A stretch of DNA of 25,946 nt from positions 1 through 25,946 of IMG/VR virus record IMGVR_UViG_3300009151_005385. One strand, written 5' to 3'. Origin of the DNA: a virus. This document shows positions 5,984-25,946 of the stretch, one piece after another. Positions within the stretch are counted from its first letter, which is position 1. Every line of letters begins with the position of its first letter. The position numbers were made by a program, and so were the translations under genes. The notes below the pieces were generated by a model. That model saw only the letters and a program-made list of their open reading frames with translations, was not told the DNA's origin and did not search any database.

Positions 5984-6495
5984 TATATTCCTCTAAATTC
6001 GTTAGTACTGGCCCATGTAGCCGTTATTGTGCGATAGAATGGTTTAACACCACCATAGGTATGTTTATTATCGGAAACAACAAGACCGTCATCAATTACG
6101 GTATAGTATCTAACTCTACTTTCAGTTTCATAATATCCAATATAATCTCCCATAAAAATATTCACACTAAGGTCATCCAAAGTTTTTTGATAAATGGAAA
6201 ATTTCATATTACCTGGTTCATCTTGTTTAACTTTTGAGTTACCCAATAATTTGTTTGTTGGAGCCATTATTTGAACAAGACCCTTTAATTCAACAGGTGC
6301 CAAAAATTGAATCCCATCTTCAAGAACTTCACCATAGACATCATCTGTTTTTGTTTTATACCTATCAATACGATAAAGAATAACTGTGAAATTCATATCA
6401 CCGAGAAGCCATTCTTCTCCCATACCAATATCAAGTGAGAGATCTTCCCCACCAAAGAATTTTCCTAAACGAGTTATAGGTACTAAATTTTCCAT
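5983..6495 (-). CDS. Probable neck protein (gp14-like)
   Basis: The 170-residue protein has DDVYGEVLEDGIQF (about residues 51-64), a central strand segment with KFSIYQKTLDD, then IFMGDYIGYYE and VRYYTVIDDGLV. T4-type gp14 proteins contain a D-x-x-YGE motif near the start, an LxFxI/L strand and a GDxIxYxE...YYxVxxV pattern in this order. That order and the operon with a gp15-like gene support a neck role, linking the gp13 ring to the tail. It is shorter than T4 gp14 (256 residues). It starts 52 bases from the divergent helicase gene, so the 6496-6547 gap should hold promoters for both. The call is an inference from pattern and context. Confidence 0.45.
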   Translation of the reverse strand: MENLVPITRLGKFFGGEDLSLDIGMGEEWLLGDMNFTVILYRIDRYKTKTDDVYGEVLEDGIQFLAPVELKGLVQIMAPTNKLLGNSKVKQDEPGNMKFSIYQKTLDDLSVNIFMGDYIGYYETESRVRYYTVIDDGLVVSDNKHTYGGVKPFYRTITATWASTNEFRGI

Positions 6496-6547
6496 ATTGA
6501 TAAATAGTCAAAAGATAACTATATTTAATACAAACATTTTTTAATAG

Positions 6548-8299
6548 ATGGAAATAAGTTTAGAATCAAGAGCAATGTCCTTATTGGAAACATATGAGGG
6601 TGCAAATAACTATTTGCTTGAGATAAAAAGAAAATCCCAAATTAATAAAAAATTCTACCCAACAAGAAGTCAATCCGAATATATTATTGCCAATTATAAT
6701 AAGACACCCAAGGTTGCCAAAAAGTGGGTTATACTTGACGCTTACTTCGCACAAAAACTTGCTGATGATAAATTATTAACTGTAGTTCCTGAAAAGATAT
6801 GGGTTGAAAAGTTATTGGTTGAAAAGGAAACATCGTTTCATATTTGGGGTAAGATAACTGAAAAACAAGAACTCCATGATTTTTGGTTACCGAAAGCGGC
6901 AATTATAAAAGATAATACCGTTAAAAATGTTGTAATTAATTATGAAAAATATTCTCACCGTCCACCATTATCTCACCAAAAAGAGGCAATCCAAAAATTG
7001 GTTGAAAATAAAAAGTTTATACTTGCCGACGATATGGGTCTTGGAAAAACTACTTCAACTATTATTGCTGCTATAGAATCCAACTCAAAAAAAGTTTTAA
7101 TTATTTGTCCGGCAACACTTAAAATTAACTGGAAACGAGAAATTGAAAACTACTCCGATAAATCTGTCTACATTGCTGAAGGAAAGAATTTTAGTTCAGA
7201 TGCTGACTATGTTATCATAAATTACGACATTATAAAAAATTTCCATGAAATTAAGAAAAAAGATGACTCGAAAATTCTTAACTCCAATTTTGATTTGGTT
7301 ATCGTTGACGAAGCACACTATATCAAAAATGGTTCCGCCCAAAGAACAAAACTAATAAATGACCTTGTAAAAAAAGTTGATAGACTTTGGTTATTATCAG
7401 GAACTCCAATGACCTCAAGACCAATGGATTATTTTAATCTATTAAGTTTAGTTGATTCACCCGTAGCCAAAAACTGGTTAGCTTACGCAGTAAGATATTG
7501 TAGTGGGTATCAATTTAATGCTGGTGGTAAAAAGATATGGAATGTAACAGGTGCTAGTAATCTTGAAGAATTAAGAGACCGAACATCAGGAACAATATTA
7601 AGAAGATTGAAAGAAGATGTTCTTGAGCTTCCTGATAAAATTATAACTCCAGTATATTTGAGATTAAAATCAAAAAATTATGAGGAAGTTATGGGAGAAT
7701 ACTATGATTGGTATGATAAAAATCCTAATGAATCCAAATCATTAACAGTTCAGTTTACCAAACTAACCAAGATAAGACAAATTATTGCTGATGAAAAAAT
7801 TTCACAGACAATTGAATTGGCAGAAAATATTATAGAGCAAGGTAAAAAAGTTATTATATTTTGTAATTTTACTGACTCACTTAATAAAATCGCAGAACAT
7901 TTTGGAAAAATTGCAGTTAAACTTGATGGGTCTATGTCTAAACCAAACAGACAACATAGCGTAGATGAGTTCCAAGATAATGAAAAGGTAAAAGTATTTG
8001 TTGGAAACATTAAAGCCGCAGGAGTCGGTATCACCTTAACCGCTGCTGAAGCAGTTATCATGAATGACTTATCATTTGTACCTTCAGACCATGCCCAAGC
8101 AGAAGACAGAGCTTATAGATACGGGCAGAAAAACAACGTCTTAGTATATTATCCCATCTTTGAAAATACTATTGAAGGAATTATCTACGACATATTAAAC
8201 AATAAAAAACAAGTGATTGCCACTGTGATGGGGGACAATCAAGACAGCGGTGATGTTGCTGAAGAAATCTTAAAGAGAATTAATGAAATGCGTCGTTAA
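6548..8299 (+). CDS. SNF2-family DNA helicase/translocase (SMARCAL1-like)
   Basis: This 583-residue superfamily 2 ATPase has Walker A DDMGLGKT (residues 161-168), motif Ia around IICPATLKINW (about 185-195), Walker B DEAH (254-257), motif III SGTP (284-287) and a C-terminal lobe ending in QAEDRAYRYGQ (517-527), the SNF2 arginine-finger motif VI. The compact lobes without a long insert resemble SMARCAL1/HARP-type annealing helicases and those of T4-like phages. It probably acts on replication forks or recombination intermediates, a role like that of UvsW, though it is not a UvsW-type sequence. Residues 1-135 are an uncharacterised accessory domain. It is followed after 42 bases by the superoxide dismutase fusion gene, with a TATTTATA element between them. 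Confidence 0.9.
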   Translation: MEISLESRAMSLLETYEGANNYLLEIKRKSQINKKFYPTRSQSEYIIANYNKTPKVAKKWVILDAYFAQKLADDKLLTVVPEKIWVEKLLVEKETSFHIWGKITEKQELHDFWLPKAAIIKDNTVKNVVINYEKYSHRPPLSHQKEAIQKLVENKKFILADDMGLGKTTSTIIAAIESNSKKVLIICPATLKINWKREIENYSDKSVYIAEGKNFSSDADYVIINYDIIKNFHEIKKKDDSKILNSNFDLVIVDEAHYIKNGSAQRTKLINDLVKKVDRLWLLSGTPMTSRPMDYFNLLSLVDSPVAKNWLAYAVRYCSGYQFNAGGKKIWNVTGASNLEELRDRTSGTILRRLKEDVLELPDKIITPVYLRLKSKNYEEVMGEYYDWYDKNPNESKSLTVQFTKLTKIRQIIADEKISQTIELAENIIEQGKKVIIFCNFTDSLNKIAEHFGKIAVKLDGSMSKPNRQHSVDEFQDNEKVKVFVGNIKAAGVGITLTAAEAVIMNDLSFVPSDHAQAEDRAYRYGQKNNVLVYYPIFENTIEGIIYDILNNKKQVIATVMGDNQDSGDVAEEILKRINEMRR

Positions 8300-8312
8300 A
8301 CAAAAACTGGAT

Positions 8313-8320
8313 TATTTATA
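8313..8320 (+). promoter_or_regulatory. TATTTATA octamer upstream of the SOD fusion gene
   Basis: A plus-strand TATTTATA ends 21 bases before the ATG at 8342, in the 42-base gap after the helicase stop. Orientation relative to the gene matches the other copies listed. Inferred promoter element. Confidence 0.3.
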
Positions 8321-8341
8321 TGAAATGAATAGTCCAAAAAT

Positions 8342-9880
8342 ATGAAAAAAATAGAAGAAAAAATAATACAACTTGAAACACAAATACTTGAGACCCAAAT
8401 CATACAAGAAAAAGAGTTGTTATTAACCGAAATGAAAAAGATTGGGATTGAAAAACTTCCTTACTCTTACTCCGCCCTCAAAACATTTATTGATCCACAG
8501 ACAATGAAATTACATTACACAAAGCATTATTTTGGCTATGTGGATAAATTAAATGACGCATTGTCTAAAAAGAAATATGGCGATTTAGAGTTAGAACAAA
8601 TTATCAAAAACATAAGTCGTTATGATAAAACAATCAGAAACAATGCCGGTGGGGCCTTTAATCATGCGTTGTTTTGGAATTTTTTAACCCCAACACCAAA
8701 AAAATTAGGAGGTGAACTCTACAAAAAACTCACAAAACAATACGGGACATTTACGGCATTCAAAAAAGAATTTGATAAAGTTGCCAAAGAAAGATTTGGT
8801 TCTGGGTGGGTTTGGTTGGTATTAACTGCAAAGAACACATTCAAGATTATGTCTACACCAAATCAGGATAATCCGTTAATGAATGTTATTGAAGGTGGCG
8901 GATTCCCATTATTGGGATTAGATGTTTGGGAACATGCTTATTATTTGAAATATCATAACAAGAGAGATGAATATATCACAAACTTTTGGAAGGTAGTAAA
9001 TTGGGATTTTGTTTCCAAGATGTATGAAATGAAAACTGAAACAAAATTAATGGAATCCGTTAATTTTGAAAAATTATTGACCGAGTCTGTTGAAGCAAAA
9101 TTCTGTGAACCTAAAGAAGTTTTATTTTATAAAGAATTAATAAACAATTCTCAAATTAAGAAAATATATCAAAACGGAGTTACAGATTCATTAAAACAAG
9201 TATTCCACCAATTTTGGGTAGATGGAACAAGTAGTGAAATGGCAGGATTTTATGGTGTTGAATCAAAAGAAGGTAGGTCAATATTAAATAATCTTAATAC
9301 AAACTTTAATACGTTTTGTCTTCTTGTTAAAGCAGTTAACAAAGAAATTATAAAAATTGGAAAAGAAGAAAAAATGTTTGATTTTTCTAAAAAAGAAAAA
9401 AGAACAGTATCTGAAATCACAAGATTTGTTAAAGCATTAGACCATTTCAAAAAAAATATTTTTACCAAAAATAATGAAGATTTTCTTAATATTATTAGAG
9501 TATTAAAGAAACTATGGGATAGAGGTCAAAAATCTGAAGATAATGTATTAAATAAAGTAGAAGATTATTTTGAAGGAAATGCCAAATTAATTAAAGTTGG
9601 AGGACATGGACAAAAAAATGACGCCATTAAAGGTATTGATTTGAAAATAGAAATGGATGGAAAAATCCATACCGCACAAGTAAAACCATATTCAAATACA
9701 TCACTTGATGGTGATAAAGTTAAAATATATGATACTGGAAATGTTAAACCATATAATGTAGATTGGTTAATTTTTATTCAAACTAAAACAAAGAAAATTT
9801 TAATATTTAAAAATAATCCAATAAGTAATGAGAATGTTTATGTATTTAAGATAAATTCTCTATTATACGAAATAGAATAG
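8342..9880 (+). CDS. Fe/Mn superoxide dismutase fused to a nuclease-like C-terminal domain
   Basis: A 512-residue fusion. Residues 1-35 form a Glu/Lys/Gln-rich helix, probably coiled coil. Residues 39-230 are a complete Fe/Mn superoxide dismutase. The four metal ligands are present: H58 (LHYTKHY), H108 (NNAGGAFNHALFW), D194 and H198 (LGLDVWEHAYY). The gateway Tyr66, the FGSGWVWL segment and an NQD segment (Q175) of the Mn-type also appear. SOD converts superoxide to oxygen and peroxide. Residues 240-512 do not belong to that family. Their end (about 398-450) has SEDNVLNKVEDYF, then GIDLKIEMDG (D433) and AQVKP (Q446, K448), fitting a PD-(D/E)xK-type nuclease core with QxK instead of ExK. No stop or frameshift separates the parts. 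No signal peptide is seen, so it is cytosolic or virion-borne. The nuclease call is inferred; the SOD call is firm. Confidence 0.85.
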   Translation: MKKIEEKIIQLETQILETQIIQEKELLLTEMKKIGIEKLPYSYSALKTFIDPQTMKLHYTKHYFGYVDKLNDALSKKKYGDLELEQIIKNISRYDKTIRNNAGGAFNHALFWNFLTPTPKKLGGELYKKLTKQYGTFTAFKKEFDKVAKERFGSGWVWLVLTAKNTFKIMSTPNQDNPLMNVIEGGGFPLLGLDVWEHAYYLKYHNKRDEYITNFWKVVNWDFVSKMYEMKTETKLMESVNFEKLLTESVEAKFCEPKEVLFYKELINNSQIKKIYQNGVTDSLKQVFHQFWVDGTSSEMAGFYGVESKEGRSILNNLNTNFNTFCLLVKAVNKEIIKIGKEEKMFDFSKKEKRTVSEITRFVKALDHFKKNIFTKNNEDFLNIIRVLKKLWDRGQKSEDNVLNKVEDYFEGNAKLIKVGGHGQKNDAIKGIDLKIEMDGKIHTAQVKPYSNTSLDGDKVKIYDTGNVKPYNVDWLIFIQTKTKKILIFKNNPISNENVYVFKINSLLYEIE

Positions 9881-14694: not shown

Positions 14695-14729
14695 TTTCAT
14701 ACTTTATACGATATTTATAGTATATGAAA
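14695..14729 (+). promoter_or_regulatory. Operator-like TTTCATA / TATGAAA pair before the second RHH gene
   Basis: TTTCATA at 14695-14701 and TATGAAA at 14723-14729 repeat the heptamer found before the RHH gene at 4370, and again one copy overlaps the start codon. A TATTTATA (14712-14719) lies between them. Wider spacing than at 4340-4375. Shared control by RHH proteins is inferred; part of the match comes from Met-Lys codons at both starts. Confidence 0.3.
14712..14719 (+). promoter_or_regulatory. TATTTATA octamer before the second RHH gene
   Basis: Plus-strand TATTTATA ends only four bases before the ATG at 14724. If it works as a promoter core the transcript would be nearly leaderless. 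On the minus strand the same bases read TATAAATA, the T4 late core, 70 bases from the start of the BppU-like gene, so direction is unclear. Confidence 0.25.
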
Positions 14730-14876
14730 CCAAGAAAAAAAGAAGAAGATAAAAAAATTAAATTTGCGATTAGTTTAGACCCTAAATTATTTAAACGAAT
14801 GGAAGAAGATATTACTAATAAATCAGGGCTTATTGAAAAATTACTTAGAGAACACTATGGAAAAAAAGATTTGTAG
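14724..14876 (+). CDS. Small ribbon-helix-helix DNA-binding protein
   Basis: A 50-residue protein with a basic tail (MKPRKKEEDKK), a beta strand IKFAISLDP, helix 1 KLFKRMEEDI and a second helix after TNKSG (LIEKLLREHYG). The strand, the DP/SP turn and the Lys/Thr-Asn-Lys-Ser-Gly helix turn are typical of CopG/Arc-type RHH repressors. It overlaps the HNH gene that follows by 20 bases, so the two are translationally coupled and probably act together, the RHH protein perhaps limiting nuclease expression. It shares an upstream heptamer with the RHH gene at 4370 but is not closely similar to it in sequence. No clear Shine-Dalgarno is seen. Confidence 0.6.
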   Translation: MKPRKKEEDKKIKFAISLDPKLFKRMEEDITNKSGLIEKLLREHYGKKDL

Positions 14877-15600
14877 TAAATGTAAAATTGAAAAAGATGT
14901 TTGTGAGTTTTATGTTGATAAAACAAAAATAGACGGGAAATATTCTTGTTGTAAATTATGTAAAAAATCTTATTCTAATACAAGAACTGACGAAATAAAA
15001 ATATACTTAAAAAAATGGAGGCTAGATAATCCTAATTTTGGTAAAGAGTATCGTAAAAAAAACCCTAATTATGTTAAAGAATATTACCAAGATAATAAAG
15101 ATATTATGTTATCAAGAGTTAAAAAACATTATCACGATAATAAAGAAAAAAATTTGGACAAATTAAGAAAACGTAGTAAAGAATATTATGAAAATAATAA
15201 AAAAAACCGTTTAGAATATAGTAAAATTTATCGTAAAAATAACCATAATAAACGCAATGAATATGTTAAAAATAGAAAGTTAACCGACCCCATTTATCGT
15301 CTATCGTCTATAGTAAGAAATAGAATAAGAACATTTCTTAAATTAAAAAACATAACAAAAAATAACCCCACATTTAATATTGTTGGTTGCCCGCCAGAAT
15401 TTTTAAAAGAATATTTAGAGAAACAATTTACTGAAGGAATGACTTGGGAATTAATGGGTCAAGATATTCATATTGACCATATAATGCCTTTATCTTCCGC
15501 AAAAACTAAAGAAGAAATTTATAAACTTTGTCATTATACAAATCTTCAGCCCTTATGGGCTGAAGATAATTTGAAAAAAGGAGCTAAGATAAAATCTTAA
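14857..15600 (+). CDS. HNH endonuclease with N-terminal zinc ribbon, homing type
   Basis: A 247-residue protein. Cysteines C6, C9, C32 and C35 form a zinc ribbon at the N-terminus. Residues 40-150 are a long Lys/Asn/Tyr-rich region with repeated EYYxxNK-like units, probably a DNA-binding helical array. The C-terminus is an HNH core: IHIDHIMPLSSA (D207, H208), then YTNLQPLW (N229) and DNLKKG. This layout is typical of free-standing phage homing endonucleases, which cut DNA and spread their own gene. ATG 14857 was chosen over a TTG eight codons upstream because MEKKICSKCK is the usual start of this family. It sits between two minus-strand blocks. Its stop interlocks with that of the glycosyltransferase gene at 15597-15600 (TTAA). 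Confidence 0.85.
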   Translation: MEKKICSKCKIEKDVCEFYVDKTKIDGKYSCCKLCKKSYSNTRTDEIKIYLKKWRLDNPNFGKEYRKKNPNYVKEYYQDNKDIMLSRVKKHYHDNKEKNLDKLRKRSKEYYENNKKNRLEYSKIYRKNNHNKRNEYVKNRKLTDPIYRLSSIVRNRIRTFLKLKNITKNNPTFNIVGCPPEFLKEYLEKQFTEGMTWELMGQDIHIDHIMPLSSAKTKEEIYKLCHYTNLQPLWAEDNLKKGAKIKS

Positions 15601-17270
15601 CTCTCTTTTCTTAATCCATCAGCATAAAATTCAAAACGGTCATGCTCTGTTGGTGTTAATAACAAAATACCTGGTTTAATATTACCTTTAACTGTTTCTT
15701 GATAACAATACGACATAAGAGTTTGTTCGAATGGATGTGCCCATTTTGTTTCTAAATAACATTTATAATTACCTGGTTTACTTAACACAATTGGCCAGTT
15801 AGACAGATAGATTTCACCGTCAACATATGGTAATCCTTGATGTATTTTAATGTTATTAAATTTAGTTCTTGGAGCGTTGGGGTCTAAACCTTGAACAGGT
15901 AAAGATGATTTTTCAGGAAATAATTCTACCCTAACATGTTGAGGCACATTATACCATGAAAATTGTATATCATTTGATCCATAAAATTCAGTAAAACTTA
16001 ATTTTAAAAAATCAAAATTTTCATTTTTCATGATTTGTAATGATTTTGAATATAAGTTTGGAACAAATCTATTAAAACCATTTCTACACACTTCACCTTT
16101 TTTAGGATAAAACGCCATATCATCTTCAAACCAGTAACAGAAATCTAATCCTGTTTCATCAAAATGTTCTGCAACAAATACTCTACCACCAACAATTCCA
16201 ATATTATCTTTTTTAATATGTTCAAATCCATATTCTTCACAAAGTTCTTTATATCTTGGAGTTGTTGATAAATCGGTTGAATTGTCTAATAAAAATTTCT
16301 TAGGTTTAAGAATAAAATCTTTATCATATTCTAACATTGATTGGATTAATGTTTGAAATTGATTTGGGCTATTAAATGTGATAACATATAGACCAACTTT
16401 ATTGGTATCCAAAGTATTTTCAAGAGATATTTTACCTTCAGATTTAACTTTTAAAGTATCATTTTTTAAATCTTCAAAAAACTTATTAATTAAACCATTT
16501 GATTCAATTTCAAAATAATTAATTAAATCTGAATGTTTATAAGTCATAATGGAAAAAATACTTTCTTCAGTGCCCATATAACCTTCATCTAAAGTAGATT
16601 TTAATACACTATAATATATTCCATTAATATCTGATATTGTATGTTTTGGACCACCGAAGAATCCTCCACGAGCAACTTTATTTACTTTATCACCAGCAAT
16701 TGAATTTAATTTATTATATTCAAATCCGTGAATTTCTGTTTCGGCATCATATGGAAAACATATAAAAGAAAATTTTGAAATGTATTTGGATAATTTATCT
16801 AAAACCTTATCATGCGTAAAATATCCTGGATGGACGGTATTGGATAATCCTCCGTCAATCCAAAACATATATTCAGAATCAAATTTATCCATTATCCTGG
16901 CGTCATTTAATAAGAATAGTTTAGACATTACAAGTGGATTATAATTTTCCAATCTTGCTTGGGTAGATTCTTTTAACCACCCTGATCTGTTTAACCAATC
17001 TTCTTGGGTTCTTATTTTTTGAATCTTATCAAAAAATTCATTATCTCTGAACCAAGATAATGATCTTACAATGAATTGAGTGTTTGAATCACTTCTTCTA
17101 TCAAAAACAAACTTTTTAAGTTCCTCATCACCAAAAATAATAAGATTATTATCAACTTCTAAAAGTTTCTCAAATTTATCTAAATAATGTTGGTATGATC
17201 TTGACCATCCTTCAGATAATTCTCCTCTTCCAATATCCCAAATACCGGTTACTAATGTTATATTACTCAT
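15597..17270 (-). CDS. Two-domain glycosyltransferase (HtrL/WlaTC-like plus GT-A)
   Basis: A 557-residue protein of two parts. Residues 1-255 resemble the HtrL/WlaTC glycosyltransferase family: an N-terminal VTGIWDIGR strand, NPLVMSKLFLLNDA, FWIDGGLS (D139), GGFFGG and GTEESIFSIMTYKH. Residues 290-557 are a second GT-A-type domain starting VGLYVITFNSPNQF with an FEDDM metal-binding motif (E382, D383, D384). Two catalytic domains in one chain suggest consecutive sugar additions. The N-terminal half is a relative of the next gene upstream (shared WID-x-GLS and GG-x-FGG). It is the last gene of the glycosylation operon; its start overlaps the preceding stop by eight bases. Sugar donors and acceptor are unknown. 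Confidence 0.72.
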   Translation of the reverse strand: MSNITLVTGIWDIGRGELSEGWSRSYQHYLDKFEKLLEVDNNLIIFGDEELKKFVFDRRSDSNTQFIVRSLSWFRDNEFFDKIQKIRTQEDWLNRSGWLKESTQARLENYNPLVMSKLFLLNDARIMDKFDSEYMFWIDGGLSNTVHPGYFTHDKVLDKLSKYISKFSFICFPYDAETEIHGFEYNKLNSIAGDKVNKVARGGFFGGPKHTISDINGIYYSVLKSTLDEGYMGTEESIFSIMTYKHSDLINYFEIESNGLINKFFEDLKNDTLKVKSEGKISLENTLDTNKVGLYVITFNSPNQFQTLIQSMLEYDKDFILKPKKFLLDNSTDLSTTPRYKELCEEYGFEHIKKDNIGIVGGRVFVAEHFDETGLDFCYWFEDDMAFYPKKGEVCRNGFNRFVPNLYSKSLQIMKNENFDFLKLSFTEFYGSNDIQFSWYNVPQHVRVELFPEKSSLPVQGLDPNAPRTKFNNIKIHQGLPYVDGEIYLSNWPIVLSKPGNYKCYLETKWAHPFEQTLMSYCYQETVKGNIKPGILLLTPTEHDRFEFYADGLRKES

Positions 17271-18144
17271 AAATTCTATTTAATTCTTCTAAAATTTTAT
17301 AAAAACTTTTATTTTGTTCAAGTGTTTCATCCGATACTCCTTGTGGAGAATTACCTTTAAACCACCATATATCAAAATCTTTTCTTTCGAATAATTCTCT
17401 ATGGTTTACACTCATTAAACTCATAATAACTTCTTCATGTAAAATTACTTTATCCTCACTTATAATCTTTTGAAGATAGTCTTCAAATATATTTACAACC
17501 TCATCCCACCTATCTCTATGACCTCCGAACAGTCCTCCGATAATATGAATATTTCTATCGTATTCTTTATACCATTTAGGGTCAACAGTTCCAGACCAAA
17601 AATTTCTATCATTTTCTTTACCAATAAGTAAAAATTTATCTCTTGTATCTTCAATTACATTATGTAAAAAATCATTATTAAATAAATTACTTTCATAATA
17701 ACATCTCATTGGACCAACCGCAGTTAAGTATTTATTAGGGATTAAACCACAATGAGATAATCCTGCATCAATCCAATAATAATAATCATAACTCTTATCT
17801 TCTTTCCACCACCAATGAAATTTACTGTATTGTATTTCAACACATCTATCAGAGTGTTTTGCCTCATCAATATTTTTATATTGATTAATTAAATCTTTAA
17901 ACTTGGTATTTGATATATCAAACACTTCAAATACTAATTTATCTGAAGATATGTTATGTTGGGTATAAAAAAAATCTTTTAAATCTTCAATTTCTCTATC
18001 TGAAGTATAACATAAAAAGTCCGCGTCACTCATTTTTAATAAGGATAATAAACTCCATTTGTAATGTCCCCCCCTACTTGGTCTTCCTCCAAATTCGGTT
18101 CCATGTAAATCACTATAAATCGATGTTATAAATTTAATTTTCAT
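17263..18144 (-). CDS. HtrL/WlaTC-like glycosyltransferase
   Basis: A 293-residue protein of the HtrL/WlaTC type, paralogous to the N-terminal half of the downstream gene: FITSIYSDLHG at the start, YWIDAGLSHCG (D126), GGLFGG and HEEVIMSLMSVNH. WlaTC is linked to sugar-chain synthesis in Campylobacter and HtrL to the E. coli LPS core region; donor and acceptor are not known here. The ATG at 18142-18144 was chosen because it overlaps the TGA of the upstream gene as ATGA, which indicates translational coupling, and because residue 2 onward begins the domain. A frame-open extension of 14 residues to 18186 is not needed. Several Trp-rich segments (HWWW at about 110) are present. Cytosolic, no signal peptide. 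Confidence 0.72.
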   Translation of the reverse strand: MKIKFITSIYSDLHGTEFGGRPSRGGHYKWSLLSLLKMSDADFLCYTSDREIEDLKDFFYTQHNISSDKLVFEVFDISNTKFKDLINQYKNIDEAKHSDRCVEIQYSKFHWWWKEDKSYDYYYWIDAGLSHCGLIPNKYLTAVGPMRCYYESNLFNNDFLHNVIEDTRDKFLLIGKENDRNFWSGTVDPKWYKEYDRNIHIIGGLFGGHRDRWDEVVNIFEDYLQKIISEDKVILHEEVIMSLMSVNHRELFERKDFDIWWFKGNSPQGVSDETLEQNKSFYKILEELNRIYE

Positions 18145-18866
18145 ATACTTTCTGTAAATCTTTGTGAATAATTTATATTTCCCCAATCCGAAAAATGTGG
18201 TAAATGAAATGGGGCAAAATTATTTGTTGGTTTAATTTTATGTGGAATTTCTGAATAGTAAACTCTATCCATCATATCTCCGTCTTCGGCGCCCCATCCA
18301 ACATATTTTTCATTGAATCCGCCTAAAGATGTTAATAAATTAGTGTCGGAAATATAAACGCCGCCTAATCCACCAGTATGGTGTCTTAATGGTCCATTTT
18401 CTTTAGCACCTGAATATGCGTAAGACCAATCAGCTTTATCAATGATAAAAGTATCATCAACAATATAATCCGAAACATTGTCATTTAATTTTGCCAAATC
18501 AAAAGTGCAAACATCTCCTTTATTTAGGGATTTAATTAATTCCAAAAGTTTTTCATAATCTTGTTCGTGAAAAAATGCGTCACAATCTATAATCATAAAA
18601 AAATCATAATCTTGTTTATCTTTTAGAATTATGTTAGTTTTTTCTGCTTTTTTATAGACACCCAAGGGGTATGATATGTGAATTGCGTCAGAGATTATTT
18701 GTTCAGGGGAAAAATCGTATAGAGATGCTTTTGCGGTAATTCCGTTTGAGTTAAGATAATTTGATAATTTTTTTAATTCTTTCCAAGAAAAATTAACATT
18801 TCTTATTCTGGTTGAATCAGGTTGACCATCATCCCAAAATTTCATATTTAAAGAGATACTATTCAT
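18141..18866 (-). CDS. GT-A glycosyltransferase, GT7-like C-terminal motif
   Basis: The 241-residue protein has a DxD-type motif in MIIDCDAFF (D94, D96) and a downstream GGFNEKYVGWGAEDGD segment (about 182-197). The W-G-x-E-D-x-D element is the acceptor/metal signature of the galactosyltransferase GT7 C-terminal domain and of related GT2/GT27 enzymes. It probably transfers a hexose or HexNAc from a nucleotide sugar onto a growing glycan. The start at 18866 overlaps the preceding gene by eight bases; Met8 (18845) is an alternative start. Its stop is interlocked with the next start. The exact donor cannot be read from sequence. Confidence 0.7.
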   Translation of the reverse strand: MNSISLNMKFWDDGQPDSTRIRNVNFSWKELKKLSNYLNSNGITAKASLYDFSPEQIISDAIHISYPLGVYKKAEKTNIILKDKQDYDFFMIIDCDAFFHEQDYEKLLELIKSLNKGDVCTFDLAKLNDNVSDYIVDDTFIIDKADWSYAYSGAKENGPLRHHTGGLGGVYISDTNLLTSLGGFNEKYVGWGAEDGDMMDRVYYSEIPHKIKPTNNFAPFHLPHFSDWGNINYSQRFTESI

Positions 18867-19794
18867 TTACTAATATTTTAATTGTTTCCCAAATATTATA
18901 TTTAGGATTTATGAAAAAATCTTTTTTTAATTTTTTTATGTTATCAGAGTATTGTTCGTATAGTCCTGATTCATTTTCTACTATAGATTTAACTTTATTA
19001 ACCATTTCATCCATAGTCATATTATTAAGAGAGATGTAACAATTATCGGGTATCAATTCATTAATGTTGGAACATCCTAAATAAATTGGAATGGTATTTG
19101 TTAAAACAGCGTCCCAAAATTTTTCACTAATATAATTTTTTTGAATGGTATTTTCGCAAGCCACGGAAAATTTATAGTCATCAAGACCAGCGTGTTTGTT
19201 CCACACCTCTCCTTTAATATTTTCACCATTAGATTCCCAATAAGTTCCGTAAACATCAATCCTTTTATCTTTAGATAATTCAATACCTAAATTGGTTCTT
19301 TCTTCATAATTTATCTTATGAGTATTTGGATTCTGTAAATGATTGTAATGACTGGAATAATCTTTTCTAACTATGATTGAAACTGACTTGTTTTTTGAAT
19401 AGTCTTTATCTTTTAATTTAGAAGACCAATCCCACTCTTCTCTATGGTCATTCTCGCCTCGACCTGCATAAAACATTGGCAATAATGTTTCAATATATTC
19501 TTCTCTATCAGGGTATTCTAATTTGTCCGATACTAATATTTTTGAACAGTAATCGTGTATACCATCTTTTGGCTGATTTGGAGACCATAAAGGTTCTTGT
19601 GAAACATAAAAAGTCCTTTCTTTTGGGGTCTCAATTTTATCCCAATCGGTTCTGCCAAAAACTATGGTAAAATCAGGGTTTTCTGTAACAAATGAATATT
19701 GATTTAAATCATCATTTGGTACAAATTGTCTTATCATTCTTGCATTTAACAAGGGTGTATTTGTCCACCAGCATTCTAATTTTATTTTAATCAT
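18859..19794 (-). CDS. GT10 (alpha-1,3-fucosyltransferase-like) glycosyltransferase
   Basis: The 311-residue protein carries the GT10 C-terminal donor-site motif: YKFSVACEN (207-215) followed by YISEKFWDAV (221-230) and TIPIYLG. This matches the YKFxLAFEN...YxTEKLxxAL...PVxxG signature of alpha-1,3/1,4-fucosyltransferases. These use GDP-fucose to decorate GlcNAc- or Glc-containing chains; other members act on other acceptors. The N-terminal half (a GRTDWDK segment, YVSQEPLW) is the variable acceptor domain. GDP-fucose synthesis genes are not in the window, so the donor must come from the host or other phage genes. It lies 17 bases after the preceding gene in the operon. No transmembrane anchor is present, unlike eukaryotic members. 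Confidence 0.8.
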   Translation of the reverse strand: MIKIKLECWWTNTPLLNARMIRQFVPNDDLNQYSFVTENPDFTIVFGRTDWDKIETPKERTFYVSQEPLWSPNQPKDGIHDYCSKILVSDKLEYPDREEYIETLLPMFYAGRGENDHREEWDWSSKLKDKDYSKNKSVSIIVRKDYSSHYNHLQNPNTHKINYEERTNLGIELSKDKRIDVYGTYWESNGENIKGEVWNKHAGLDDYKFSVACENTIQKNYISEKFWDAVLTNTIPIYLGCSNINELIPDNCYISLNNMTMDEMVNKVKSIVENESGLYEQYSDNIKKLKKDFFINPKYNIWETIKILVNE

Positions 19795-19811
19795 AACTTA
19801 TTTTATTTTAA

Positions 19812-20411
19812 TTATATAATATCTAATGATAAACTGTTATATCTCACAAATTTATCAGGACAATATTTAAAAATATGGTCATTTTGTAATTGTCTAATAT
19901 CTAAAGCATAATGTCCGTCGGCATTCCTATAACTAATATTATGTATACATGTTTTTTTTAACATACGATATCTCATCATACAAGATCCAATATCAAAAAG
20001 ACCTAAATCAAATCTATGTTCACCATCACCATACAATCTAATTTTTTCCGTTAAACCTGCTTTTTGTGAAAATAAAACTAAATCAACATCAGAATCTTTT
20101 TCTTCATTATATGTTGAAATTAAATCCCAAGTAACGACATTATCGTCGTCTAAAAAATAACACCAATCATTATTATCTACAGGTATATCAGTAATAAAAT
20201 AATTCCTTTGTTCATGACCCCAAATATGTGAAGTGTCTATCTTATAAAATTTAACTCTATTATCCCCTTCAAGGAAACTAACATCTTCTTCACCAATGCT
20301 ATTACTACCCTTAATTAAATGCCAATTAAAATCCTCTACTTGATGTTTAATTGTTGAATATACTGCTCTTAAATTATTATACCGATAAAGTGGGGTAATA
20401 AAATGTATCAT
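19812..20411 (-). CDS. GT-A (GT2-like) glycosyltransferase
   Basis: A short (199 residue) GT-A protein. It begins with MIHFITPLYRYNNL, a typical strand-loop for the nucleotide-binding domain, has an EQRNYFI acceptor helix, and an FLDDDN metal motif (D88-D90) after WCY. It lacks the long C-terminal region of larger family 2 enzymes, so it may be a minimal transferase. Its start overlaps the upstream gene by four bases (20408-20411, ATGA). A DGHYALDIRQL segment lies near the C-terminus, where the catalytic base of these enzymes is usually found. Donor and acceptor unknown. Confidence 0.7.
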   Translation of the reverse strand: MIHFITPLYRYNNLRAVYSTIKHQVEDFNWHLIKGSNSIGEEDVSFLEGDNRVKFYKIDTSHIWGHEQRNYFITDIPVDNNDWCYFLDDDNVVTWDLISTYNEEKDSDVDLVLFSQKAGLTEKIRLYGDGEHRFDLGLFDIGSCMMRYRMLKKTCIHNISYRNADGHYALDIRQLQNDHIFKYCPDKFVRYNSLSLDII

Positions 20412-21256
20412 ACTATATAATTTTTGAAAATTGAAAACATTTCATTATCTGAATCGGTCTTCATTTTTTTTATTGTTAAATCTAAATTAGTTAAATATTT
20501 TTGTCTAAAAAAATCGTAATTCTCTAAAACATTATTTATAGTTTCAACTATCGTATCATATGGTGACCATATAATGTGTTTGCTAATTGGGATATGTTCT
20601 TTATATGGAGAGTCTTCACTAATAACTAATATACCCGTCAATAACGCTGGTAAAACCCTTAATTCTTCTAAAGTACTATACCTGTCTGTTTGATGAATAT
20701 TAACCAATACTTTATATTCATCCATAACTTTTTTTATGATATTTTTACAATATATGTTGCCAACACCATAAACATTATGGTAATAATCCATATCAACTTT
20801 TTGATGAATATTATTTCTTCTTGAAGTTGAACTATGAATTGTTAAACAATTTTTAAATCTATTATCACTGTTACTAATATCATATAGTAATGGTGGATAA
20901 TATCGAAAAACATCCGAATTTTCTTTAAAATAATCGGATGTTTTTATATGATTTAGATTAGCATTTGAATACTCAAAAACTGATTGTAATTTAATTAGTT
21001 CGTCAAATTTATTTACAGTACAAGAATAACCATTATTATACTCATTTTTAATAAACGTATGTTCGTACTGAAAATCTAAATTAATGTCTTTTAATACATT
21101 ATTACACCCAAAATTAACTGAATATGGAACATTATTATTTGTTAAAAATAATGTTATATCATTAAGTATGTATTGATAATATTCGTTTAGATTTCCATTG
21201 TTCCATTTTGTATCATAAAATAACTCACTATTATTAATTATTTTACTTTTAATCAT
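20408..21256 (-). CDS. GT-B-like glycosyltransferase, group 1-type C-terminal domain
   Basis: The 282-residue protein has no DxD motif. Residues 182-235 form a Rossmann-like half: YKVLVNIHQTD, then STLEELRVLPALLTGILVISEDS and a WSPYDTIVETI segment. The pattern of a conserved Glu-Glu-x-Arg helix followed by a strand with VISED matches the C-terminal nucleotide-sugar site of GT-B enzymes of the group 1/CgeB-like type. Residues 1-130 are a divergent N-terminal acceptor domain, very Asn-rich. Overlaps both neighbours by four bases, consistent with translational coupling. The sequence is diverged, so a non-catalytic role is possible. Confidence 0.55.
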   Translation of the reverse strand: MIKSKIINNSELFYDTKWNNGNLNEYYQYILNDITLFLTNNNVPYSVNFGCNNVLKDINLDFQYEHTFIKNEYNNGYSCTVNKFDELIKLQSVFEYSNANLNHIKTSDYFKENSDVFRYYPPLLYDISNSDNRFKNCLTIHSSTSRRNNIHQKVDMDYYHNVYGVGNIYCKNIIKKVMDEYKVLVNIHQTDRYSTLEELRVLPALLTGILVISEDSPYKEHIPISKHIIWSPYDTIVETINNVLENYDFFRQKYLTNLDLTIKKMKTDSDNEMFSIFKNYIV

Positions 21257-22014
21257 AAATTTTCTTTATTATCCATAAAAAATTTTTCATAAGGATATAA
21301 ATTAATGTCAGGTAATACTTTATCACATGGCATACCAAACATACCTGAAATATTACTTTTAGGATTATTACAATTGTATTTTGAACCAAAAGTAAAATTT
21401 CTATTAAAAAATGAATATTTGCCGACTCCTGGTTTTATGTGTGTATGTCTAATATCAGAAACAATATTATAAACTCCTTGTACATATAATTGATAAACGT
21501 CTTTATTTTTACTTTCTAACATTCTATATGTGATGTCTCCGTCCTCTTCACCAAATCCTAATAATCGTTCATCAAAATAACCTAATTCATCAATAAGATT
21601 TTTGTTAACTACAAAAAATGAAAATGTGCCATTTATTTTTGAGATGCCGTAATATTCTTCGGATTCAATATGAGAAGAAACAACCTCAAACATATTTTCA
21701 TTGACTAAATCAATATCGTCATTTAATAATAAAACATTCTCTTTAGTTGAGTGTATTAACAATGTGTTCCACATTTTAGATAGTCCTCTTGTTTCTACAA
21801 AAAATATTGGGAATATGTTAGGATGTGATAAGCAGAGGGTAAGTATTTTTTTTCTATATTCTTCGTCAAAATTAGAATCCTTTTCACCGTTTATACATAA
21901 ATAAATGTTATTTGGAACATTTAATTCTTTAATTTTGTTAATTAATTTTTCAATAAAATCATATCTTAATGAAAATGTTGTAATACCTATATCATAATTA
22001 TTTTTCATATTCAA
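21253..22014 (-). CDS. GT2-family glycosyltransferase
   Basis: A 253-residue GT-A enzyme with an N-terminal DIGITTFSLRYDF strand, a LCINGEKD donor loop, the LLNDDID metal motif (D99, D100, D102) and a GYFDERLLGFGEEDGD segment (145-160), the family 2 acceptor-site signature, with E156 or D158 a likely catalytic base. It adds a sugar from a nucleotide donor. It shares the G-F-G/W-G-x-E-D-G-D theme with the protein at 18141-18866. The given ATG (22014) overlaps the upstream methyltransferase by 17 bases; Met3 (22008) is an alternative start. Cytosolic; no membrane segment. Confidence 0.75.
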   Translation of the reverse strand: MNMKNNYDIGITTFSLRYDFIEKLINKIKELNVPNNIYLCINGEKDSNFDEEYRKKILTLCLSHPNIFPIFFVETRGLSKMWNTLLIHSTKENVLLLNDDIDLVNENMFEVVSSHIESEEYYGISKINGTFSFFVVNKNLIDELGYFDERLLGFGEEDGDITYRMLESKNKDVYQLYVQGVYNIVSDIRHTHIKPGVGKYSFFNRNFTFGSKYNCNNPKSNISGMFGMPCDKVLPDINLYPYEKFFMDNKENL

Positions 22015-22558
22015 AATTTGTTTGTTTTCTATGAATTAAAAGTTTATTGTTATTATGTAATTCAAAAGGAATATTTTTTTCTTTAAACCATTCTATGGTA
22101 TTAGCACTATCATGTGCGTGTAAATCTTCGATAATGTATAAACCATTTTCTTTTAAATGAGGATATAATGATTCAAAACTTTTAATATGGTGAAAATGGG
22201 TATGAAGTCCGTCATCAATGATAATATCGTAATCACTACCATATTCATTTACACATTGGGTTAAATCTTCAGTTACGCTTTGGTCACCAATGAATATTCG
22301 GACATTTTCTTTTTCATATTTTTTACAATCTTCGTTAATATCAAAACCAATAAAATCTATGTTTGAAAAAAACTCAGTCCACATTTTAATTGAAGCTCCA
22401 GGAAATCTTGGATCTGCAACTCCTATTTCTAACATCTTAATTTTTTCGTCTTTTAATGGATAAAATAATTCTTGATATGTTTCGGTATAAGAGTGATATT
22501 CAAAATGTTGAGTACCTTTATCGGTACCAAGTCTATTTGCCATTTCTGTTAGCGTCAT
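21998..22558 (-). CDS. Sugar O-methyltransferase-like class I SAM enzyme
   Basis: A 186-residue class I methyltransferase. Its N-terminus (ANRLGTDKGTQHFEYHSYTE) with a following LEIGV SAM-binding loop (43-47), PGASIKMW, FDI, IIDDGLHTHFHH (113-124) and YIIEDLHA (141-148) match the pattern of metal-dependent deoxysugar O-methyltransferases of the MycE / ElmM-type family (GTDKG...YxxxY...LEIGV...PGASxxMW...IDDGSH...EDLH). Those enzymes methylate sugar hydroxyls on antibiotics. Here the substrate is likely a sugar made by the neighbouring transferases. It is a paralogue of the next gene upstream in the operon and starts 14 bases after it. The exact substrate is inferred. Confidence 0.72.
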   Translation of the reverse strand: MTLTEMANRLGTDKGTQHFEYHSYTETYQELFYPLKDEKIKMLEIGVADPRFPGASIKMWTEFFSNIDFIGFDINEDCKKYEKENVRIFIGDQSVTEDLTQCVNEYGSDYDIIIDDGLHTHFHHIKSFESLYPHLKENGLYIIEDLHAHDSANTIEWFKEKNIPFELHNNNKLLIHRKQTNFEYEK

Positions 22559-22572
22559 AAATTAATAGGTTA

Positions 22573-23178
22573 TTATTTCTTTTTTATTATTGATGTAACA
22601 CTTTGGTTATAATCTGGAGTTTTAGACCATATTCTAATATCAGCAACATTATTTTTTATGTATTCTTTTTCGTCATCTAAGATATGATTGGATGCAATGT
22701 TATTAGTAAATTTAAATGATTGTAACATATCTAAAGTGGTTATTAAATCATCAGGAAAAATAGTTCCAAAATTTTCTAATCTTGATGTATGTAAATCTTC
22801 TAAAATATAAATTCCACCTTTTTTTAATCGACTGAATAATGCTCCAAATGATACTTGTTGTTGTTTCATTGTGTGTCCACCATCATCAATGATTATATCA
22901 AATTCGACATTAGTTTCTTCTAAAAATCTGTTTAATGCGTCTCTATCTTCTTGATTAACAATATATGTTTTAACTCTCTTATCGTCATACTGGGTTTTAT
23001 CCTCAATGTCGATTCCATATATATTACCATCCTTAAACTTATCTGATAGATATTTAAGGCTACCGCCATAATATATTCCAATCTCTAATATGTGTTTACT
23101 ATCACTCATATCATTAAAATATGGTTCGTAAACATCTATGAATCCGTGTAGATATTTATCCGTATTATATTCTTCCAT
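22573..23178 (-). CDS. Sugar O-methyltransferase-like class I SAM enzyme
   Basis: A 201-residue relative of the downstream methyltransferase. It starts EEYNTDKYLHGFIDVYEPYF, then LEIGIYYGGS (31-40, SAM loop), YGIDIEDK, IIIDDGGHTMKQQ (95-107) and ILEDLHTS (125-132). These are the same landmarks (TDK, LEIG, IDDGxHT, EDLH) seen in MycE/TylF-type sugar O-methyltransferases; the Asp and Glu-Asp residues would hold the divalent metal. Two non-identical copies in tandem suggest methylation at two positions or on two sugars of the glycan. It begins ten bases after the GT60-type gene. Protein-independent small-molecule methylation cannot be excluded. Confidence 0.72.
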   Translation of the reverse strand: MEEYNTDKYLHGFIDVYEPYFNDMSDSKHILEIGIYYGGSLKYLSDKFKDGNIYGIDIEDKTQYDDKRVKTYIVNQEDRDALNRFLEETNVEFDIIIDDGGHTMKQQQVSFGALFSRLKKGGIYILEDLHTSRLENFGTIFPDDLITTLDMLQSFKFTNNIASNHILDDEKEYIKNNVADIRIWSKTPDYNQSVTSIIKKK

Positions 23179-23188
23179 TTTATTTTTT

Positions 23189-24457
23189 TTAACTAACGCT
23201 ATTATGGTTTAATTGACCTGTAATTCTATCACACCATCCTTTTGATTCTGAGTGAGGCCAAACAACCCAGTATTGAGGTAATTCATCAGTTTGGAATTCT
23301 CTCCATACTTTACAATAATTATCAGGGTCTCTCATAAATCCTGCAATTTCGTTTTTATCGGCATCTTTTCTATATAATGTTTTCTCATCTTTACCGTGAA
23401 ACGCAACAACCCAATAGTCATAATCAGTTTCAGTAACTTGGGAATACCCGATATCAATACAATGTTTGAATATCATACAGAAATTATCTTTCCATTCCTG
23501 TTCTGTTTCAAAATTGTATGGGTTTGGTGGATAATTTTTATCTAGTGTGTATTTATCAATTGCTCTTTTTTCAAACAAAAGACCTGAATATTTTTCATAA
23601 TCTCTTAAAGTTCTAACTGTACCAAATCCATATGGTCCATCATGACCTTCTTGAATTTCACCATCCATTCCAAATAACTTTCTATTAGTTAAATGAGAAA
23701 CTCTATTTTTTTCTCCCCACGCCTTATCATCATCCCATTGTTTTGTGCGACCTTTACGAGTATACTCATGATAAACAACTGGAATATGTGGATGGAATAA
23801 ATCATAGCCCCATGTGTAAGCTCTTGCAGCGATTGAAATTTCTTCTCCGTGAAAATAGTATTCTGGATTATGTTGAACTTCTGTTGAAAATTGACCTAAT
23901 GTGAAACAGAAGTGAGCTGAATAAAATCTTGCTGTAACAGGTTTTGTCATTTCTCTCCAACCTGGAATTGTTTCAGGTAAAAAGAATACAGCACCTTCAG
24001 GGATGAATCTATCGAACACCATTCTCCAAGCATCTTGTGATCGTCCTGCAGGGTCATTTTCAGGGTCGAAGGATGGTACATATCCCGTAAGTAAAGGTTT
24101 TTCATACCCATCCTTTTGTAGTCCTTTTATCATCTTGATTAGGATTTCGTCCCAATCTTTAACAAACCTCATATGAGAGTCTATTTGTAATGTATATGTT
24201 TCACCATCATAAAGTTGTTGCGTAAGATTTCTGGCCCAACAAACTCCTTTGGCATCTTGATAAGGAATGTCTAAGATTTTAAATCTTTTATCATTTCTAT
24301 ATTCATCTAAATTATCAAATCCATCGGTTTCATTGAATTGTCTTGCGATTGCGAATACAAGGTTTTTTGGTTTTTTTGCATTTTCCAACATATCTTTAAT
24401 TGTTGGAATTAATTGTGGATCTCTATAAGAGGCGCATTGAATGAAAATTTTGCTCAT
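23189..24457 (-). CDS. GT60-type N-acetylglucosaminyltransferase-like protein
   Basis: A 422-residue protein beginning SKIFIQCASYRDPQLIPTI, with a DSHMRF metal motif (about 93-98), an ARNLTQQL segment, and YFHGEEISIAARAYTWGYD further on. This set matches the 'Glycosyltransferase (GlcNAc)' family GT60. Characterised members add GlcNAc to hydroxyproline of Skp1 or to Thr residues of mucin-like proteins in protists. The C-terminal 120 residues (from about YPPNPYNF) are extra. ATG 24455-24457 was chosen: the longer in-frame start at 24493 lies inside the terminator hairpin of the upstream gene. It is the first gene of the glycosylation operon and the neighbour of a Thr/Pro-rich protein, a likely acceptor. 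Donor sugar is inferred from the family. Confidence 0.8.
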   Translation of the reverse strand: MSKIFIQCASYRDPQLIPTIKDMLENAKKPKNLVFAIARQFNETDGFDNLDEYRNDKRFKILDIPYQDAKGVCWARNLTQQLYDGETYTLQIDSHMRFVKDWDEILIKMIKGLQKDGYEKPLLTGYVPSFDPENDPAGRSQDAWRMVFDRFIPEGAVFFLPETIPGWREMTKPVTARFYSAHFCFTLGQFSTEVQHNPEYYFHGEEISIAARAYTWGYDLFHPHIPVVYHEYTRKGRTKQWDDDKAWGEKNRVSHLTNRKLFGMDGEIQEGHDGPYGFGTVRTLRDYEKYSGLLFEKRAIDKYTLDKNYPPNPYNFETEQEWKDNFCMIFKHCIDIGYSQVTETDYDYWVVAFHGKDEKTLYRKDADKNEIAGFMRDPDNYCKVWREFQTDELPQYWVVWPHSESKGWCDRITGQLNHNSVS

Positions 24458-24478
24458 AATATTATTTTTAATAAACAT

Positions 24479-24508
24479 AAAAAAACCCCTCATAAAATGA
24501 AGGGTTTT
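24479..24508 (-). terminator. Strong intrinsic terminator after the Thr/Pro-repeat gene
   Basis: On the minus strand AAAACCCTTCAT and ATGAGGGGTTTT pair as a 12-bp stem (one G-U pair) with a 3-base loop and run into seven Ts. It lies 22 bases after the stop codon of the repeat protein and separates it from the GT60-type gene, whose transcription needs read-through or its own promoter in 24458-24478. Confidence 0.85.
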
Positions 24509-24529
24509 ATTTGTATATTTTTTTTCTTT

Positions 24530-25946
24530 TTAAGAGATGTAAAACTCAACTGTATCACTTGGTGATGCATTGTTAATACCTGAAATACTAAAATTAAGTG
24601 TGTTGGTTCCAGCGTAACAACCTTGACTTGTTTGTTGTATGAATGAATTATTTTTATAATAACCAATGGTAACTGAACTACCTCCATTTCCTGTGCTTGT
24701 TATTTCAAATGATACCGTAACACCTGACAATCCTGAATGAGTACCATAATTAGTACCACCTGACCAAGCTAATGGGTATGAACCAGTTGTTCCTGTAAAT
24801 CCTACACCAGATGTTCCAACATATGGAATCTCTGTTAATATTAAGTCATTTAATGTAACACCTGTACTACCAGAGTAGAAATGAACTTTAAATGTGTTAG
24901 TTCCAAAACTTGAAGGTGTTGGAGTTGGTGTAACCGCTGGTGTTCCTGATTGAGTCGGTGTTGGCGTTTGAGTATTAGTTGTAGTAACGGTTGGTGTTTG
25001 TGTTTGTGTTACGGTATTGGTTGGAGTGTTGGTTGGAGTTTGAGTGGTAGTTGGAGTTGGAGTTGGAGTTGATCCACATAATGAAGAGTTTAATACAACT
25101 CCTGTAGAATTTAATTGGTAAACAATACTATTGTAAACATAATATCCTGCCAAATCTACACCAGGACAGAATCCTGTTGCACAACCATAAAAGAATGTGT
25201 TACTTTCGAATACTGAACTTTCACCAAATATAGTTGTAGTGGTTGAAGTACTACAAGCACTTATTGATGAAATATTATTATAACTTGTAATAAACGGATA
25301 TCTTGATGGTTGAGGGTCAGTTGGTGATGGAGTTGGCGTATGTGTTGGAGTTTGACTTGGGGTATGTGTTGGAGTTACAGTATTAGTTGGTGTATTTGTG
25401 GTTGTTGGTGTCGGTGTTACTAAAATTGAACAACCTGTATCAACTTTTTGAGTAATTTGTCCAGATCCTCCTGATACTAAGTACCAAGCAATTCCATTAG
25501 AATAGTACCCATTACTAACTGCTAAACTTAATGTTGCGTCGGTATATAAGTAATCACCAACACTAAGAGTTGATCCTTGAGTTCTTGATATGTAACGGAA
25601 TGTTTCTGTTGCAACACAAGCGGCATTTGGTGTATCACCAGAACCTAATAAGAAACTATAATTATACGGTGTTGGCGTTGGTGTTGCTGTTGGTGTTGCT
25701 GTTGATGTTGGTGTTGAAGTATTAGTTGAAGTGTTTGTTGGAGTTTCGTTTGGAGTTTTAGTTTGGGTATTAGTTGGAGTATTTGTTGGAGTATTTCTTG
25801 GAGTTCCAGTATTTGTTGGAGTGTTGTTTGGAGTTGGAGTAATCGTTGGTGTGTTTGTTGGAGTAATCGTTGGTGTTGGTGTTAATCCTATTGGAGGAAA
25901 CGCACCCAAGTTAGTTAAAACAATACTGTTTGGAAATGCAGTTGAA
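24530..25946 (-). CDS. Thr/Pro-repeat (mucin-like) fibre or adhesin protein, 5'-truncated
   Basis: The frame is open to the window edge, so the N-terminus is missing; no ATG is present and the apparent TTG start at 25909 is unnecessary. The visible 471 residues alternate three Thr/Pro-rich linkers ([12 protein letters not shown] units) with globular parts. Two Cys-bracketed domains (DNA about 25422-25640 and 25077-25270) share a GYY-x6-[WY] strand and end in a Cys, so they are probably copies of one module. The C-terminal domain (from [11 protein letters not shown]) is beta-rich with a Gly/Ser-rich sheet and one Cys. No enzyme motif is seen. Such architecture suits a virion surface fibre or adhesin. 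The Thr density makes it a plausible target for O-glycosylation by the adjacent operon; this is inferred. Confidence 0.65.
24910..25070 (-). repeat. Thr/Pro codon repeat, block C
   Basis: Degenerate ACT/ACA-CCA/CCT triplet repeat encoding [12 protein letters not shown] and TQTPT units between the second Cys-bracketed domain and the C-terminal domain. On the plus strand it appears as GTTGGAGTTGG and GTTGGTGTT units. Confidence 0.85.
25318..25420 (-). repeat. Thr/Pro codon repeat, block B
   Basis: Short linker repeat encoding [14 protein letters not shown] and [17 protein letters not shown] between the two Cys-bracketed domains. Same codon pattern as blocks A and C, with His and Ser substitutions. 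Confidence 0.85.
25669..25885 (-). repeat. Thr/Pro codon repeat, block A (longest)
   Basis: About 72 codons of Thr/Pro/Asn/Ser with [17 protein letters not shown] and [10 protein letters not shown] units. The imperfect nature and mix of synonymous codons suggest long-maintained repeats rather than a fresh expansion, but slippage could still vary the length. Confidence 0.85.

Follow-up and report, generated by a model that had tools for sequence, protein, structure and literature searches.

Genes of the locus

We describe a putative mucin-type O-glycosylation locus on the virus record IMGVR_UViG_3300009151_005385, whose 25,946 bases, taken whole, we call the window. On the minus strand, starting from the right end, a Thr/Pro-repeat protein is followed by a GT60 transferase and then by MT201, MT186, GT253, GT282, GT199, a GT10 and a GT7 transferase, GT307 and HtrL557, the last of which ends at 15597. 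The window also encodes tail sheath, neck and family-B DNA polymerase genes. The gene order, strand and coordinates given in a preliminary description of this DNA proved right in an open reading frame (ORF) check of the window, and the overlapping starts and stops that it had pointed out are real at six junctions, with overlaps of 4 to about 17 bases.

The Thr/Pro-repeat protein (24530..25945, minus strand; phrog_15511), the proposed acceptor, is a mucin-like product of 471 residues with no start codon. It contains 114 Thr and 49 Pro, with tracts at residues 14-100, 168-223 and 280-354 and small globular modules in between, and is the only such ORF within the window. The N-terminus is complete, and about 50 residues longer, in the homologues from L004 and L032, so the contig must break inside the repeat gene. 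The window contig and an identical 69.9-kb relative (L003) both end within this gene, and the shared end is probably an assembly break at the repeats. We no longer treat ‘fibre’, the name first given to this protein, as its established identity, since microscopy revealed no tail fibres on XacN1, a cultured phage that shares the GT60/HtrL pair (PMC5852040).

The GT60 transferase (23189..24493, minus strand; the start may be an internal Met at 24457) is the proposed chain initiator. Its family identity, suggested earlier from motifs, was confirmed by a PF11397 profile search (E=9.4e-65; 219.8 bits against a cut-off of 21), by its match to phrog_24687 (E=2e-165) and by its detection in a genome search. 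A DSH motif (D105-S106-H107), a DxH in place of DxD, is invariant in 43 diverse GT60 homologues. Sequence searches of solved structures with GT60, GT307, HtrL557 and GT253 gave no match, leaving only a fold search informative: the structure model of GT60 (predicted local distance difference test score, pLDDT, 92; predicted template modelling score, pTM, 0.87) has as its best 31 PDB matches exclusively polypeptide N-acetylgalactosamine (GalNAc) transferases, the mucin-initiating enzymes (best E=9e-11). GT27 and GT60 have been grouped by their DxH motif and by Ser/Thr O-glycosylation, with GT60 distributed among prokaryotes and protists (PMC7185993), and as modelled our GT60 has a GT-A fold related to the GT27 polypeptide transferases. 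In some genomes two GT60-like genes lie near each other (L093, at 5948-6868 and 7971-9233; G033; L216; L217) and possibly have different acceptors.

Mucin-like proteins beside GT60 genes

A viral search with the GT60 protein found 328 stretches that encode a homologue, and in the loci of the best 80 of these the identity is at least 84% (84-93%), with one contig identical. Further, more distant loci came from a second viral scan and a scan of bacterial genomes. As a mucin-like tract we counted 40 residues with at least 8 Thr, at least 8 Pro, at least 12 Thr+Ser and at least 24 Thr+Pro+Ser. The preliminary description had named the lack of co-occurrence between GT60 and mucin repeats in relatives as grounds for giving up its reading; a mucin-like ORF in fact lies directly upstream of GT60 in 114/161 viral loci, and directly downstream in 0/162. 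When GT60 genes are clustered at 80% identity, the upstream ORF is mucin-like in 10/42 clusters as against 20/612 genes lying at least four places away (p=5e-6). In bacterial genomes the ORF directly upstream is mucin-like in 7 of the 46 independent GT60 clusters, as against 1/246 distant genes (p=1e-5). A comparable Thr/Pro tract occurs in none of the 961 genes of 80 random viral loci and in none of 20 random 20-kb bacterial stretches, and the Thr/Pro protein at the window locus is more than a chance neighbour.

The association also holds in reverse. Among large viral records picked by a TPTPTNTPT-coding motif, 14/25 encode a GT60, compared with 0/25 picked by an arbitrary 14-mer (p=5e-6), a contrast favoured somewhat by the shorter average length of the control records. 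Viral contigs often encode long mucin-like ORFs of this Thr/Pro type (L284-L363).

Mucin-like ORFs are not confined to the GT60 locus. A 321-kb relative (G001) has nine of them at six places, some far from GT60, so one glycosylation pathway may serve several virion proteins. A mucin-like protein of this phage (L263:5338-8187) has SprB repeats (PF13573), otherwise known in surface proteins of Bacteroidota, which is a hint that the host belongs to that phylum. On a Sphingomonas-binned contig (L124:4382-7990), a 1202-residue protein that combines Thr/Pro linkers with a glycoside-hydrolase-like domain (PF08924) lies 5 bases from GT60; judged by eye, it has a tail- or injection-system-like look.

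Three cultured phages, XacN1, CM1 and RAS14, have a GT60 homologue at 43-46% identity. XacN1 and RAS14 share a frame of GT60, a large second gene, a GT307-like and an HtrL557-like gene; in XacN1 the second gene is a carbamoyltransferase, which takes the place of the window cassette. The GT60 homologue of XacN1 is ORF334 (46% identity). Its ORF325 matches the virion structural protein family phrog_10938 (E=6e-73) and carries C-terminal Thr/Pro tails, as does the RAS14 counterpart, and ORF350 has a long Thr/Pro segment. According to the XacN1 paper, at least two glycoproteins were seen by proteomic analysis and were suggested to be products of the phage's own transferases, ORF328 and ORF334 (PMC5852040). 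In the cultured bacterium Jiulongibacter sediminis, the chromosome encodes GT60, then a carbamoyltransferase, then a fusion of an FkbM methyltransferase with HtrL, flanked by a divergent mucin-like gene, and a Saprospiraceae contig has a similar pattern. The N-terminus of the Jiulongibacter mucin-like protein (NRRLALRELF...) resembles a twin-arginine translocation (Tat) signal; Tat export of an already folded protein would be compatible with glycosylation in the cytoplasm.

Exchangeable cassettes and their borders

We called a locus complete when it reaches HtrL557 (n=79; two more are cut by contig ends). HtrL557 is the last gene in 79/79 complete loci and GT307 is present in 71/79, while the genes between GT60 and HtrL557 fall into 35 families. 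In 60 loci a GT25 gene stands there, nearly always alone before GT307; the remaining loci have sets of two to eight genes of GT10, GT11, GT25, group 1, GT7 and methyltransferase types. GT60 and HtrL557 are nearly constant and the genes between them are exchangeable cassettes. Close relatives illustrate the exchange: between the window and L004/L005 the flanks are 88-99% identical (polymerase 94-96%, neck gene 97-99%) and GT60 92-93%, GT307 and HtrL557 are only 74-75% identical, and seven cassette genes of the window are replaced by a single gene. In the divergent phage L225, on the other hand, most of the window cassette recurs with little change of gene order, at 53-72% identity.

All genes of the window cassette are on the minus strand. 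The preliminary description had counted seven further glycosyltransferases besides GT60, and family, profile or model evidence supports five. HtrL557 (15597..17270), the constant last gene, matches PF09612 (E=6e-20, residues 3-252), and its model has two GT-A domains that match LH3, chondroitin polymerase and LARGE1, with a pTM of 0.53 and an uncertain arrangement between the domains. GT307 (17263..18147, with an ATG start at 18147, or at 18186 if the longest ORF is taken) has no Pfam match and is an HtrL-like transferase related to HtrL557 by profile (hhalign 98.6%, E=6e-16). In the variable part, GT7_241 (18141..18866) has a GT7 C-terminal domain (PF02709, E=2e-9), GT10_311 (18859..19794) is of the fucosyltransferase family (PF00852, E=6e-17), and GT253 (21253..22014) is a weakly supported GT2-like transferase (PF10111, E=5e-4, below the cut-off) that also matches the galactosyl transferase family phrog_29879 (E=3e-5). 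The other two are only plausible as glycosyltransferases: GT199 (19812..20411) has a WCYFLDDDN motif, no family match and a negative profile comparison with GT253, and GT282 (20408..21256), placed among the transferases by position, has a 53% homologue in L225 and no Pfam match in the family search.

MT201 (22573..23178; PF13578, E=1e-7; phrog_21658, E=1e-20) and MT186 (21998..22558; phrog_21658, E=1e-22) are supported as class I methyltransferases, and sugars, as first proposed, are their presumed targets. MT201 has a 72% homologue in the same place at L225, and MT186 is 92% identical to a homologue in L049. A simple hydropathy scan predicted no membrane segment in any cassette protein. GT10, GT7 and the methyltransferases are optional parts of the locus, since most relatives have a single GT25 gene instead, and we have dropped the fucosyl cap as a general feature because GT10 is absent from most relatives.

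An HNH-type, endonuclease VII-like gene (14857..15600, plus strand; phrog_1035 endonuclease VII, E=7e-16; HIDH...N motif) marks the distal cassette border, and its relatives occupy the same border in other loci. In 13 of 17 distinct cases, de-duplicated by eye, HNH-type endonucleases adjoin HtrL557 or directly precede GT60 (expected 12%, p=2e-9), and they are commoner with unusual cassettes (7/18 vs 3/57, p=0.001). Their position suggests that they probably promote cassette exchange. The endonuclease start is overlapped by a 50-residue ORF (14724..14876, plus strand) that has no Pfam match and that looks by eye like CcdA or a ribbon-helix-helix protein. The pairing of the two, at 14724-15600, resembles one seen in moraphages (PMC12619734).

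A probable virion glycosylation pathway and its alternatives

We give a probability of roughly three in four to the reading that this is a mucin-type O-glycosylation locus of a large tailed phage, which modifies virion proteins in the cytoplasm and exchanges its cassette in a serotype-like manner. In the cytoplasm of the host, a soluble GT60 would attach the first sugar, most likely alpha-N-acetylglucosamine (GlcNAc), to threonines of the Thr/Pro tracts that virion proteins carry. The enzymes encoded between GT60 and HtrL557 would then extend it; in the window these are at most six transferases, GT7 and GT10 members among them, and two methyltransferases. The HtrL-type GT307 and the two-domain HtrL557 would complete the shared part of the chain. 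Virions, perhaps through the Thr/Pro protein of the window itself, would display mucin-like, heavily glycosylated linkers that may serve in shielding or adhesion. Because the middle of the locus is exchangeable, a cassette swap could let closely related phages display different glycans, much as an O-antigen locus does. A broader proposition, that large phages and some bacteria have in common a prokaryotic mucin-type system in which GT60 starts chains on the Thr/Pro tracts of many virion proteins, with nine candidate ORFs in the 321-kb relative, HtrL enzymes finish a common part, and border homing endonucleases drive cassette exchange and make glycan serotypes switchable, seems to us evenly balanced.

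The idea that GT60 primes Thr-rich virion proteins and its neighbours extend the chain was the core of the preliminary description, and it is well supported by the co-occurrence in relatives, the predicted fold and the glycoproteins of XacN1, which has the same GT60/HtrL pair; the linkage, the sugars and the order of the chain we infer. That description had missed the cassette exchange, the border endonucleases, the spread of Thr/Pro proteins over the phage genome and the bacterial versions of the locus.

Several observations weigh against this reading. Among the most divergent viral GT60 clusters (70% identity) mucin adjacency falls to 2/16 (p=0.07), a mucin-like neighbour is lacking for the majority of bacterial GT60 genes, and the p-values given here overstate the independence of related loci. 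GT60 was not found in 11 of the 25 Thr/Pro-rich viral records, which may be fragments or have other enzymes; other initiating enzymes may act where GT60 is lacking. In XacN1-like phages the Thr/Pro tails stand elsewhere in the genome, away from GT60, and the available text does not assign the glycoproteins of XacN1 to particular ORFs (PMC5852040). No glycan has so far been seen on proteins of the window's own phage group, and GT199 and GT282 are unassigned.

GT60 might instead act on hydroxyproline, as Skp1 Gnt1 does, with the tract prolines hydroxylated before they are glycosylated. The chemistries of the GT60 family do include both hydroxyproline and Thr as acceptor (PMC8724618, PMC6939170), and five of 13 records (G001, G002, G005, G008 and G009) encode a 2-oxoglutarate-Fe (2OG-Fe) oxygenase of PF13640. 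No PF13640 protein was found in the other eight (XacN1, RAS14, G003, G004, G006, G007, G010 and G011), and the GT60 loci of two of these, G006 and G007, include mucin-like ORFs. A host could supply the hydroxylase; a universal prolyl-hydroxylase requirement is nevertheless not supported, and because of these eight records we regard a hydroxyproline acceptor as unlikely.

Less likely still is that the cluster remodels the lipopolysaccharide (LPS) or capsule of the host surface, with a block to superinfection as one possible purpose, and that its Thr/Pro neighbour is incidental. The GT25 and HtrL families owe their annotation to LPS biosynthesis loci, and the variable cassette is similar to those of O-antigen loci, but the only confident initiator is a relative of polypeptide transferases, mucin adjacency recurs in unrelated lineages, and the lack of predicted membrane segments in the cassette enzymes disfavours lipid-linked intermediates. 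We consider it highly improbable that the transferases modify phage DNA, as the alpha- and beta-glucosyltransferases of T4 do. DNA glucosylation is the role mentioned first for the four core transferases of aquatic jumbo phages, the moraphages (PMC12619734); however, fold and motif place GT60 in the polypeptide-transferase clade, the same GT60 and HtrL set is found with mucin-like proteins on bacterial chromosomes, and the DNA polymerase stays 94-96% identical while the cassette changes. Both host-surface and DNA modification fit the evidence less well than virion-protein glycosylation does.

Virion-protein glycosylation by such a locus has parallels in known systems. In the protist GT60 pathway (Skp1 Gnt1 of Dictyostelium and Toxoplasma; the mucin polypeptide alpha-GlcNAc-transferase of Trypanosoma cruzi) the first enzyme is of the same Pfam/CAZy family, the likely acceptors are also Thr/Pro-rich and mucin-like, and the Skp1 chain is likewise extended, by cytoplasmic galactose and fucose transferases. 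Our locus differs in being carried by a phage, in having a single operon for all its enzymes next to the substrate gene, in its exchangeable cassette, and in extension enzymes of other families (HtrL, GT25, GT10, GT7) together with methyltransferases. Animal mucin-type O-glycosylation by GT27 shares the predicted fold, the DxH motif and the Thr/Ser-Pro style of acceptor; in contrast, the phage GT60 has no sequence match to solved GT27 enzymes, would work in the cytoplasm rather than the Golgi, and presumably uses UDP-GlcNAc as donor. Bacterial O-antigen and capsule loci also have constant flanks around an exchangeable transferase set, whereas the phage-borne locus has a soluble polypeptide-initiating enzyme and no flippase, polymerase or lipid carrier genes.

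Mycobacteriophage-encoded transferases reportedly glycosylate the C-termini of capsid and tail-tube subunits, work credited to Freeman et al. 2023, which as cited in PMC12619734 shares with our case phage transferases and glycans on capsid or tail proteins and makes no mention of GT60, mucin tracts or cassette exchange. The moraphages are jumbo phages of aquatic habitats; four putative glycosyltransferases belong to their core genome, and CcdA-like ORFs lie next to their homing endonucleases, but we found no mucin-like protein or glycan locus in the text that describes them (PMC12619734). HSP70, linked to some moraphages (PMC12619734), was found in only 1/8 relatives of the window. The nearest precedent is XacN1, with homologues of GT60, GT307 and HtrL557, a Thr/Pro tail on a virion structural protein and detected glycoproteins; in the part available, its paper names ORF328 and ORF334 only, with no GT60 assignment, Thr/Pro link or cassette concept (PMC5852040).

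GT60 chemistry in protists, phage virion glycosylation, the XacN1 glycoproteins and the core transferases of aquatic jumbo phages (PMC12619734) were thus already known. The literature searched ties no GT60 of phages or bacteria to mucin-like proteins and describes no glycan cassettes of phages that lie between constant flanks and have endonucleases at their borders; the PF11397/GT60 papers, judged by their titles, are unrelated, algal or protist work, apart from a GT-A fold study. The earlier statement that such a pathway was not known to have been described has to be qualified in that the XacN1 paper had proposed glycoproteins made by the phage's own transferases, one of which, ORF334, is a GT60 (PMC5852040).

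Mucin-type O-glycosylation is usually regarded as eukaryotic, and there are few known cases of glycosylated phage virions. If our reading is correct, hundreds of viral contigs have a compact GT60 system next to the protein that it probably modifies, and phage glycoproteins would be frequent in fresh water. This would also provide a genetic explanation for phage surface variation and allow the sugar-bearing proteins and residues to be predicted. It also suggests a function for prokaryotic GT60 enzymes and for the uncharacterised HtrL/YibB family, and may help to trace where the GT60 enzymes of eukaryotes came from and to find soluble bacterial tools with which mucin-like glycopeptides could be made. 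Cultured organisms in which this can be tested include XacN1, RAS14 and Jiulongibacter sediminis.

Elsewhere in the window (8342-9880, plus strand) lies a gene for a 512-residue protein in which an Fe/Mn superoxide dismutase domain (residues 37-226, E=5e-39) is joined to about 290 residues of no known function; this fusion is kept in relatives at 56-96% identity.

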